Source: Oscillospiraceae bacterium (GTDB lineage: Bacteria; Bacillota; Clostridia; Oscillospirales; Oscillospiraceae). Taken from it: 64,000 bases of DNA. Made by a program: the position numbers and the translations under genes. Numbering within the stretch: position 1 is the first letter of the stretch; every line of letters starts with the position of its first letter. The notes under the pieces are model-generated. The model made no database searches. It saw nothing but the letters and a program-made list of their open reading frames with translations, and was not told where the DNA came from. This document shows positions 24,501-57,546 of the stretch, piece after piece. The DNA lies in contig WQXS01000006.1 in NCBI GenBank assembly GCA_009784725.1, positions 1 through 64,000 on the forward strand, read 5' to 3'.

Positions 24501-24605
24501 AAGCAGCAGGGATGCTATTCTATACTTTTAGTATCTCAGTCAGTTCCGTGTCGGTTGCCGGAATTCCCTCGATACTAAAAGTATAGAATAGCATCCCTGC
24601 TGCTT
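24501..24605. repeat. 105-bp palindrome: 35-nt perfect arms around a 35-nt loop
   Basis: AAGCAGCAGGGATGCTATTCTATACTTTTAGTATC (24501-24535) is exactly the reverse complement of 24571-24605; 28 nt (24547-24574) recurs in reverse orientation inside mtaB at 56821-56848. Confidence 0.9.
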
Positions 24606-27741: not shown

Positions 27742-27784
27742 AAAAGTCAAGTTGTGATACAATATGTATCACAACTTGACTTTT
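27742..27784. promoter_or_regulatory. palindromic operator upstream of the TA operon
   Basis: AAAAGTCAAGTTGTGATAC-AATAT-GTATCACAACTTGACTTTT, 19-nt perfect arms, 15 nt upstream of the antitoxin ATG. Confidence 0.72.
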
Positions 27785-27799
27785 AGGGAGGTATTTGCA

Positions 27800-28084
27800 A
27801 TGTTTTCAACCCATGTTAAAGCAGTACGCGATTTGAGGAACAATTATCCTGAGGTTGCGCAAATTGTCAAAAATCGCGATCATGTCATTATTACAAATAA
27901 CGGAAAGAGCGAAACTGTATTAATTTCATTTGAAGAGTTTGAAAAGTATCAAGAATTTCTGCATATTCGTTATGTTAAAGAAAAGCTTGCCGAAGCGGAA
28001 GCTATAGCTGATAAACCGGATGAATGGTTAGATGTTGACGACTTATTTAAAGAATGGGATGCTTGGGATGCGGTGACAATATGA
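27800..28084 (+). CDS. type II antitoxin, Phd/YefM-like
   Basis: 'FSTHVKAVRDLRNNYPEVAQIVKNRDHVIITNNGKSETVLISFEEFEKYQEF'; overlaps the toxin gene. Confidence 0.87.
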   Translation: MFSTHVKAVRDLRNNYPEVAQIVKNRDHVIITNNGKSETVLISFEEFEKYQEFLHIRYVKEKLAEAEAIADKPDEWLDVDDLFKEWDAWDAVTI

Positions 28085-28392
28085 AGCCTGTCATCCTGAA
28101 ACTCGCAAGAGATGATTTAAAAGAAATACATAGCAAGTTAATTGAATACGGAAATATACCACCCAAAAAGTTTAAAGATATATTTAAGACATTTTGTGAC
28201 AATATTACAACAATGCCATACATGTACCCTGAGTACGATCAAAACCCAAAGTACCGTAAGGCAGTTGTTGAATATGATTATCTTGTTTTTTATCAAATAG
28301 AAAAAGTAGATACAAAAGAAAGAGCAAGAGTTTATCGCGTTTTACATGGCAAACGTGATATTTTACCCATGCTTGATTCAACTGATGAATAA
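28081..28392 (+). CDS. type II toxin, RelE/ParE superfamily
   Basis: 103 aa; 'ILKLARDDLKEIHSKLIEYG..KYRKAVVEYDYLVFYQIEKVD..ARVYRVLHGKRDI'; ATG overlaps the antitoxin stop. Confidence 0.88.
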   Translation: MKPVILKLARDDLKEIHSKLIEYGNIPPKKFKDIFKTFCDNITTMPYMYPEYDQNPKYRKAVVEYDYLVFYQIEKVDTKERARVYRVLHGKRDILPMLDSTDE

Positions 28393-29678: not shown

Positions 29679-29800
29679 GTGCGGGATGGAGGTATTAGTT
29701 TTATTTATTCTTCACTCGGAGAAACGTCCTGTTTATACTCGTGCGCTCCCCGTCCATGGGTCCGCTTGTCATAAATAAAAATAATACCTCCATCCCGCAC
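29679..29800. repeat. family A palindromic element, copy 4 (divergent arms)
   Basis: GTGCGGGATGGAGGTATTAGTTTTATTTA ... TAAATAAAAATAATACCTCCATCCCGCAC arms around the core GAGAAACGTCCTGTTTATACTCGTGCGCTCCCCGTCCATG shared with copies 1-3. Confidence 0.85.
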
Positions 29801-33176: not shown

Positions 33177-33339
33177 GGTGTTGTGATTTGTTCAGGGTGG
33201 CTTAGGGTTAATTAAATTAATTTCCTTTCGCTCAGATGAAACGTCCTATTTCAACAGAGCGCCCCTCAGCGTCCATGCTTCGGTGTGCGAAAACTAATTT
33301 AACTAACCCTAAACCACCCTCAAAACAAATCACAACACC
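33177..33339. repeat. family A palindromic element, copy 1
   Basis: GGTGTTGTGATTTGTTCAGGGTGGCTTAGGGTTAATTAAATTAATTTCC pairs with the right arm ..AACTAATTTAACTAACCCTAAACCACCCTCAAAACAAATCACAACACC; core CTTTCGCTCAGATGAAACGTCC..GAGCGCCCCTCAGCGTCCATGCTTCGGTGTGCG. Confidence 0.9.
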
Positions 33340-33354
33340 GCTCCAAAAAAATGT

Positions 33355-33377
33355 CCCGCCCTCAATGTGAGGGCGGG
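33355..33377. terminator. bidirectional Rho-independent terminator between aspS and the convergent gene
   Basis: AAAAAAATGT-CCCGCCCTC-AATGT-GAGGGCGGG-AGTTTTT. Confidence 0.8.
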
Positions 33378-33391
33378 AGTTTTTAATCCTG

Positions 33392-48486: not shown

Positions 48487-48662
48487 GTAGTATTTTATTA
48501 ATTTATTCAGGGTGATTTAGGGTATATAAAATTAATTTCCTTTCGCTCAGAAGAAACGTCCTGTTTATACTGAGCGCCCCTCAGCGTCCATGCTTCGGTG
48601 TGCGAAAACTAATTTTATATACCCTAAACCACCCTCAAAAATAAATTACAACTAAACACTAC
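48487..48662. repeat. family A palindromic element, copy 2
   Basis: TTCAGGGTGATTTAGGGTATATAAAATTAATTTCC pairs with AACTAATTTTATATACCCTAAACCACCCTCAA; core CTTTCGCTCAGAAGAAACGTCCTGTTTATACTGAGCGCCCCTCAGCGTCCATGCTTCGGTGTGCG. Confidence 0.9.
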
Positions 48663-50029: not shown

Positions 50030-50222
50030 GGGACAAGTAGTTTATTTGTTTTTGAGGGTGGTTCAGGGGTTGTTAAATTGATTTTCGCACACTCAAGTCA
50101 ATGTCTCGCAAGCGAGCCATAAGACGCCGAGGGGCGCTCTGTTGAAACACGACGTTTCTTCTGAGCGAAAGGAAATTAATTTAACAACCCCTGAATCACC
50201 CTGAACAAATAATACTTGTCCC
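50030..50222. repeat. family A palindromic element, copy 3 (inverted relative to copies 1 and 2)
   Basis: GGGACAAGTAGTTTATTTGTTTTTGAGGGTGGTTCAGGGGTTGTTAAATTGATTTTCGC pairs with GAAAGGAAATTAATTTAACAACCCCTGAATCACCCTGAACAAATAATACTTGTCCC. Confidence 0.9.
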
Positions 50223-56079: not shown

Positions 56080-57546
56080 TCAAACAATTTCTCCCGTTAT
56101 TTCTCCCGTTAAAATGTCATTTTTTGTACCGGTAATTTTTGTGTTTTTGATGGTGTTTCTTTCGAATTTTCCTTTAATGGATATTTCAAGGTAATTGCTT
56201 GAATGACCTGTTGAAAAGCCGTTTTTTTCCTGTTCGGTTAAAACTTCTGCGGTCTTTCCTATTTGGGATTTTCTAAATTTGCTCGCCATTTCATTTGCAA
56301 CTTGAGCGGCTTTTTTTGCACGTTCTTTTTTTATGTCTTTACTTATATGCCCGGGCATTTTTGCGGCTTTTGTTCCGGGTCTGACCGAATAGGGAAAGAT
56401 ATGCATGTCGGAAAATGCTGCTTTTTGAATAAATTCCAGCGTTTGATTAAACTCGTCTTCCGTTTCACCGGGAAATCCCGTTATCAGGTCTGCCGTGATT
56501 CCGCAGTCCTCGTTTTGAATGTCTTCGTTTTTGTTGTCTTCGTTTTTATTGTTAAAATGCTTTCTGATTGATGTTATGGATTTAAGAACATCCTTTGTTG
56601 TATATTTGCGCCCCATTCGTTTTAGCGTCTCATCACATCCGCTTTGAAGCGAAAGATGAATGTGCTTGCAAAGATTGGGTATTTTCGATAACTCTTTGCA
56701 AAACCCGTCTGTCAAAACCGAAGGGTCAAGTGACCCAAGCCTTAGTCTTGCATCGGGCGCTGCGTTTGCGATTGTATGTAGTGCTTCTATTACGCAAGGA
56801 GGCAGTTCTTCTGCTTTTTGTATCGAGGGAATTCCGGCAACCGACACGTGACACGGGGACGGTTCTACTGTCTCATTATATTTTAATAAATCCCTTCCAT
56901 ACGAAGATATTTCAATCCCCGTAACAACAATTTCCTTATACCCCTGCTCATTTAACTGCTTTGCATACTCTGCAATACGCTCGAGCGGTAAGGACCGTGA
57001 ACGCCTGCGGATATACGGCACTATACAGTATGTGCAGAAATTGTCACACCCGTCTTGTATTTTAAGTAATGCTCTCGTACGGTTGGATGTACTGCCGGGC
57101 GGGAGTTCCTCGAATGCGGGGGTGGAAACAGGGGGACAGGTACACGAAACAGGGGGACAGGTACACTGCTTCCTATCACCGTAAATAGGAAGCAGTGTAC
57201 CTGTCCCCCTGTTTCCACCCTCTTCAACCATTTCAATAAACCCAAGCCTGTCGGAAGTGCCGTTTACTAAATCAGCACCAAGTTCAGTAACAAAATCAGG
57301 TTCCAGCTCGGAATAACAGCCAAGAACAGCAATTAGTGCATCCGGCTCCAACTTTTTCATACGCCTTATAAGCTGACGGGATTTTCTTTCGCTTTCGGCG
57401 GTTACTGCGCAGGTATTTAGAATGCAGACATCCAAGCCCGCTCCGAGAGAGCCGGACTCATGCCCCCGCTCACTTAAAACCCGCTCCATTGCTTGCGATT
57501 CATATTGATTAACCTTGCACCCGAGTGTGGTGATACAAAATCTCAT
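56080..57546 (-). CDS. mtaB: MiaB-like tRNA threonylcarbamoyladenosine methylthiotransferase (radical SAM), with repeat-encoded insertions
   Basis: 'TTLGCKVNQYESQAM', 'CILNTCAVTAESERKSRQLIRR', 'KIQDGCDNFCTYCIVPYIRRRSRSLP' (CxxxCxxC). Confidence 0.92.
   Translation of the reverse strand: MRFCITTLGCKVNQYESQAMERVLSERGHESGSLGAGLDVCILNTCAVTAESERKSRQLIRRMKKLEPDALIAVLGCYSELEPDFVTELGADLVNGTSDRLGFIEMVEEGGNRGTGTLLPIYGDRKQCTCPPVSCTCPPVSTPAFEELPPGSTSNRTRALLKIQDGCDNFCTYCIVPYIRRRSRSLPLERIAEYAKQLNEQGYKEIVVTGIEISSYGRDLLKYNETVEPSPCHVSVAGIPSIQKAEELPPCVIEALHTIANAAPDARLRLGSLDPSVLTDGFCKELSKIPNLCKHIHLSLQSGCDETLKRMGRKYTTKDVLKSITSIRKHFNNKNEDNKNEDIQNEDCGITADLITGFPGETEDEFNQTLEFIQKAAFSDMHIFPYSVRPGTKAAKMPGHISKDIKKERAKKAAQVANEMASKFRKSQIGKTAEVLTEQEKNGFSTGHSSNYLEISIKGKFERNTIKNTKITGTKNDILTGEITGEIV
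56821..56870. repeat. composite repeat inside mtaB: 28-nt core shared with 24547-24574 plus GGGGACGGTTCT motif
   Basis: TATCGAGGGAATTCCGGCAACCGACACG identical to the reverse complement of 24547-24574; adjacent GACACGGGGACGGTTCTACTGTC. Confidence 0.85.
57125..57215. repeat. palindromic element in frame inside mtaB, with duplicated 21-bp segment
   Basis: GAAACAGGGGGACAGGTACAC twice in tandem (57125-57145, 57146-57166); 31-nt perfect inverted arms 57146-57176 / 57185-57215 with 8-nt loop. Confidence 0.95.

Follow-up and report, generated by a model that had tools for sequence, protein, structure and literature searches.

The palindrome and its copies in the window

The window analysed here comprises 64,000 nucleotides of contig WQXS01000006.1 (assembly GCA_009784725.1) from an Oscillospiraceae bacterium and holds four copies of a palindromic element. 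The element folds into a three-way junction, in which a fast-evolving closing stem of approximately 25-45 bp (P1) encloses a short hairpin, P3, which sits on an internal loop, and a longer one, P2. In the RNA sense the order is P1, P3 with an ANGGAN hexaloop closed by a C-G pair, P2 with the same loop motif, and P1'. Copy 1 (33177-33339) has its RNA sense on the minus strand, where it was matched at 33199-33317 (E = 9.9e-17) by R3, a covariance model built from other species only, without any copy of the window's genome. On this strand, the RNA 5' arm of P1 lies at 33291-33339 and the RNA 3' arm at 33177-33224. Sequence, pair counts and loop invariance place P3 at 33268-33279 (RNA AGC-AUGGAC-GCU, with a loop of the ANGGAN type), and sequence and pair counts place P2 at 33229-33261, with a 5-nt loop, AGGAC, at 33243-33247. 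As a whole, copy 1 forms a long hairpin with imperfect pairing (-70.6 kcal/mol; z = -10.5 relative to 200 dinucleotide shuffles), which confirms the arm-pair palindrome described in a first-pass annotation made from the sequence alone. A separate, ordinary bidirectional terminator follows at 33354-33378, and no promoter-like site was found at copy 1.

The recurrences that the same annotation had seen at 48.5, 50.1 and, in part, 29.7 kb are real. Copy 2 (48501-48652, minus strand; R3, E = 2.9e-17) has both GGA loops intact and is flanked by divergent genes, a PadR-type gene on the minus strand and an aminopeptidase gene on the plus strand. Copy 3 (50044-50210, plus strand; R3, E = 5.1e-11) lies 21 nt past the stop codon of the aminopeptidase gene and is inverted relative to copy 1. 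It is devoid of any GGA, an inserted hairpin module replacing the P3 loop and the P2 loop reading ACGAC. Copy 4 (29679-29800, minus strand; R3, E = 5.2e-13) has a diverged core with both GGA loops present; its arms (GTGCGGGATGGAGGTATTAG...) are entirely unlike those of the other copies, yet 97% complementary. All inspected copies have their core enclosed by an inverted repeat, the sequence of which is partly or wholly locus-specific. The core that had been quoted for copy 1 actually belongs to copy 2 (48540-48576) and has more than three differences from copy 1. The core does recur as annotated, but the number of copies, the two covarying hairpins and the most conserved part, the loops, had been missed: a core model search gave approximately 36 copies in the own genome, and BLAST of the own assembly (2.77 Mb, 99 contigs) 22 recognisable copies plus a few fragments.

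The window also contains other palindromes. A second type (24501-24605 and 56814-56848) has 35-bp perfect arms (AAGCAGCAGGGATGCTATTCTATACTTTTAGTATC) and the core CCGTGTCGGTTGCCGGAATTCCCTCGATAC, which recurs at 56.8 kb beside a GACACGGGGACGGTTCT motif. Positions 57129-57220 hold a 31-bp perfect palindrome, GAAACAGGGGGACAGGTACACTGCTTCCTAT, with a loop of 8 nt and, in tandem, a partial copy; its GGGGACAGG-type ends are also found at the outer arms of several copies of the element studied here (family A). A two-gene cassette at 27764-28392 resembles, as read from its translations only, a type II toxin-antitoxin system, with a Phd/YefM-like gene followed by a RelE/ParE-like one.

Secondary structure and conserved loops

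The structure of the element is well supported. In a plain MAFFT alignment of 34 copies, 90.4% of the cells are paired, compared to 33-47% in slid controls. Two-sided changes occur at 28 of the 36 pairs, a number reached by none of 500 shuffles, and 204 cells are double-changed, where shuffles give 61 and slid controls 29-50. The shuffles ignore relatedness; the slid controls and the recovery of copies across species do not lean on an assumption about relatedness in the same way. In this recovery, model R3 retrieved all four window copies with E-values of the 1e-11 to 1e-17 class (3e-17, 1e-16, 5e-13, and 5e-11). The 116 copies of other species show 93.9% pairing and 1436 double-changed cells in an alignment that was fitted to the structure and so leans towards it.

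The first-pass annotation had reported that changes in one arm are matched in the other. The opposite arm mostly follows, but not exactly, and the remaining mismatches are mainly G-U on the complementary strand. An initial count in 39 copies gave 83 G-U versus 14 A-C mismatches, and in 151 copies from nine genomes 180 distinct G-U contexts were found on the RNA strand versus 57 A-C contexts (p = 5e-16). This excess of G-U over A-C on one strand implies that the fold of that strand is constrained. The constrained strand (minus for copy 1) is the reverse of the one that had been read in the annotation, which is the non-functional one. One of the two origins proposed there, a structured RNA with covariation, is thus supported by the pairing, the two-sided changes, the strand-specific G-U bias and the invariant loops. 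In its functional state the element is one folded strand, most likely RNA; folded single-stranded DNA would also fit the G-U bias.

Positions of zero or near-zero entropy are chiefly those of the two apical loops, both CANGGANG, and the stems turn over freely; an exception outside the loops is the G immediately 3' of the P3 stem, which is invariant. Among the 116 foreign copies, the entropy of the P3 loop, C-A-N-G-G-A-N-G, is approximately zero, and the variants GGC/GCC, AGC/GCU, GCC/GGC, ACC/GGU, and CCC/GGG of the P3 stem surround this fixed loop. In the same copies the P2 loop reads C A (N) G/C G A N G, where C-A-GA-G is near-invariant and the first G of GGA is kept in 84%. Both GGA motifs are present in 118 of 151 copies (shuffled expectation 0.18), and the gap between them in these copies is 23-47 nt, with a median of 26. 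About a fifth of the copies overall have lost one GGA, and in the window's genome one or both GGA loops are missing from about a third of the copies.

Distribution

A search of the genome and its relatives with structure models, as the first-pass annotation had proposed, revealed 10-42 copies each in eight congeners (G002, G006, G007, G008, G009, G012, G013, and G014) besides those of the own genome, and a single marginal match (E = 0.003) in G001. Model R3, whose matching ability in this family search is demonstrated by its recovery of the window copies, found no element in nine other congeners and 30 genomes of the family's other genera. An order-wide sample, searched with stricter filters, also contained no element, which is weak evidence of absence. 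Structure models were needed because plain BLAST, which gave no match in the congeners, would have wrongly made the element species-specific. Judged by AspRS, the close relatives are MAGs of uncultured Oscillospiraceae or Clostridiales. No Rfam family scored above its gathering threshold, and Rfam matches at relaxed thresholds were rejected as chance matches to long-hairpin models. Phage collections, plasmid collections and viral contigs contained no match to the element. None of the outcomes that the annotation had held against its own proposal of an undescribed element was observed: no match to Rfam, a MITE or an insertion sequence was found, many more copies exist and the covariation is strong. 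The element is real and is neither an Rfam family nor a recognised MITE or insertion-sequence end, and we regard it as a previously undescribed repeat restricted to one uncultured Clostridia genus.

Gene context and mobility

Genes were called on both sides of 143 copies by a simple longest-ORF rule. The copies lie near gene 3' ends, at a median distance of 20-40 nt. They are found at 36 convergent versus 14 divergent sites, divergent promoters being avoided, and between co-directional genes they show no orientation preference (48 sense versus 45 antisense). Consequently, many copies may seldom be transcribed in the RNA sense, and it is unlikely that the element acts mainly within the host mRNA in a strand-specific manner; a role in trans or in spreading fits better.

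Several observations point to mobility. G007 and G008 show a recent burst of near-identical dispersed copies with the common ends AGTAATAATATTC...GAATATTATTACT, and one copy (L150, 2919-3038) is present in G008 and absent from the corresponding site in G007 (L123). At six orthologous sites of two related species, the orientation is flipped in three pairs (L124/L140, L125/L154, L131/L149) and the same in three (the first copy of L123/L150, L143/L327, L153/L317). Outer arms are common to different loci (L120/L145; L126/L128/L132/L137/L153), which means that the element moves together with its arms. We therefore reject the idea that locus-specific arms arise when the element inserts into palindromes already present. 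Among the arm changes, some affect several bases in a concerted way (L134, L147). Inverted repeats are known to undergo template switching, which homogenises their arms and inverts the spacers (PMC8604942). This process would explain why the element is flipped and, in part, why the arms match, and it probably contributes to the matching; in this respect the palindrome-making process around a fixed core that had been suggested as the second origin probably plays a part as well. The strand-specific G-U bias and the invariant loops are not explained by template switching.

Other rearrangements were seen in the same genomes. Gene-order differences between G007 and G008 break at copies of the element (L141 G008:C101 versus L316 G007:C93; L156/L157 versus L319) and look like inversions between inverted copies, and several contig ends of both assemblies fall within copies. 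Locus L077 (G000:C44 17878-17943) is a palindrome with family A arms and no core, as expected if a deletion between the two flanking TAATTT direct repeats had removed it. Several copies contain a small hairpin module, TTATGGCTCGCTTGCGAGACATTGACTT or a relative of it, within their P3 or P2 loop (50106-50126 of the window; L053, L054, and L055 in G000; L319 and L350 in G007/G008). The repeat GTCATTGCGGGCTTGACCCGCAATCCCC lies inside P2 in G007 (L317, L327, L353). Repeats of other families thus seem to invade the element's hairpins.

Alternative explanations

The proximity to gene 3' ends and the excess of convergent over divergent sites would suit a cis-acting element, either a terminator or an RNA-stability hairpin at gene ends. 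We consider this improbable, because the sense strand is not preferred, the element was inverted in place at three of six orthologous sites, and an ordinary bidirectional terminator exists separately after copy 1. Moreover, no T run, as expected of an intrinsic terminator, follows the stem of the element, and a terminator has no need of invariant loops. A pure DNA-level effect, in which template switching keeps the arms of a selfish or inert palindrome complementary and the folded strand is without function, could draw on an established mechanism (PMC8604942), on the concerted arm changes at L134 and L147 and on the inversion of spacers. It predicts equal numbers of G-U and A-C residues, however, whereas 180 and 57 were observed, and it does not predict loops of near-zero entropy amid stem turnover. 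This explanation is already disfavoured, and we regard it as very improbable.

The main rival is a MITE-like element, a single strand of which (DNA or RNA) would have to fold for recognition by a recombinase, transposase or reverse transcriptase. In that case, the sites recognised by the enzyme would be the ANGGAN loops, and CsrA would be irrelevant. The element is indeed multi-copy, short and non-coding and has terminal inverted repeats, and the near-identical copies with common ends in G007 and G008, the presence/absence difference at L150 and the random orientation of copies would all be accounted for. Since G-T pairs are tolerated in single-stranded DNA hairpins too, the mismatch bias would also be compatible with it. 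Nevertheless, neither a target-site duplication nor a clean junction was found at the inspected sites, including L150 2919-3038, and no larger or autonomous element with the ends of the burst was found in G007 or G008, so that a conserved terminal inverted repeat common to an autonomous partner is missing. Terminal sequences and arms are not conserved between subfamilies, unlike inverted repeats bound by a transposase, and the loop motif coincides with the consensus of a known RNA-binding protein. A link to Y1 (RAYT) transposases was rejected, as no match to PF01797 was found in the window's genome. Taken together, we judge a MITE-like element to be unlikely.

A putative CsrA-binding repeat

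The core had not been recognised in the first-pass annotation, but its loops are of the CsrA type. RsmE contacts A/U-CANGGANG-U/A (PMC5864733), and the SELEX consensus of CsrA is RUACARGGAUGU, mostly in hexaloops (PMC7652899). A CsrA dimer bridges sites that are 10-63 nt apart, with an optimum above 18 (PMC7652899), and in Campylobacter two adjacent GGA hexaloops of the flaA mRNA titrate CsrA (PMC4894983). The element carries CANGGANG, i.e., an ANGGAN hexaloop with C-G closure as in RNAs bound by CsrA/RsmE, and the spacing of its two loops falls within the range of one dimer. In the window's genome csrA adjoins fliW. The CsrA encoded there aligns with solved CsrA/RsmE chains, and the RNA-binding region is conserved, including the Arg of the REE motif. 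The gene is present in 13 of 19 genomes of the genus, and five of the nine element-free congeners also have it; csrA was not found in two element-bearing genomes, G012 (64% complete) and G014 (86% complete). Comparing the occurrence of the element with that of csrA or fliW across the genus gave a correlation of no informative value.

From these sequence features we infer that the element may bind CsrA, and we likewise infer its transcription and the effect that any binding would have. A transcript through the element in the RNA sense would expose a high-affinity dual CsrA site, the two near-identical loops, approximately 26 nt apart, allowing one CsrA dimer to bridge both. Dozens of copies could titrate CsrA in trans in the manner of CsrB/RsmZ, and the element may also recruit CsrA to its own carrier transcript. 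As the fold and the two loops alone are constrained, P1 drifts fast via G-U intermediates, probably aided by template switching on the DNA, which would copy one arm onto the other and at times flip the element in place. The GGA losses, the lack of both motifs in copy 3, the absence of an orientation bias and the two incomplete element-bearing genomes in which csrA was not found weigh against a role of CsrA.

On balance, the best reading, to which we attach moderate confidence, is that of a dispersed, mobile-looking, genus-restricted structured non-coding RNA that is a putative CsrA binder. More tentatively, a self-spreading repeat might itself be a CsrA-binding RNA and thus a mobile regulator sponge with 10-42 copies per genome in a FliW-CsrA Bacillota genus. 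We know of no RNA antagonist of CsrA in FliW-CsrA Bacillota. Should the loops indeed bind CsrA, a global regulator of these bacteria would face dozens of scattered decoys. As these would number from zero to approximately 40 in different species of the genus, they would offer a natural series of copy numbers in which to follow CsrA titration, and the repeat family would have been domesticated by an RNA-binding protein or would be its parasite. Regardless of CsrA, the element is a clear case of a fold that is conserved while the greater part of its sequence changes. It also allows selection on the folded strand, visible in the G-U bias, to be told apart from homogenisation of the arms on the DNA, visible in the flips.

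Comparison with known systems

Like the REPINs with their RAYT (Y1) transposases, the element forms dispersed palindromes amplified within genomes (PMC3116915), but the window's genome has no Y1 transposase and the element does not consist of two inverted REP units. With ERIC, Correia/NEMIS, BOX, and RUP it shares a length of 100-170 nt, an intergenic location, foldability, multiple copies and a non-coding nature (PMC2229807, PMC3049150). In contrast to these repeats, no terminal sequence or target-site duplication was found for the element, its arm sequence turns over with the pairing kept, and two protein-type loops are conserved. The leader of Campylobacter flaA likewise has two adjacent GGA hexaloops, which at approximately 21 nt fit one CsrA dimer (PMC4894983), but the element is not attached to flagellin and is repeated, dispersed and changing in orientation. 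Antagonist RNAs of the CsrB/RsmZ kind have not been reported in Bacillota of the FliW type (PMC4894983, PMC7652899). The element resembles the CsrB/CsrC and RsmX/Y/Z sRNAs of Gammaproteobacteria in its ANGGA-loop hairpins, which by analogy would be expected to bind CsrA dimers, and in contributing several GGA sites to the RNA pool of the cell. In these sRNAs, however, many sites are concentrated in one to few genes, whereas the element has two sites per unit in 10-42 dispersed copies, each unit being closed by a long and variable stem.
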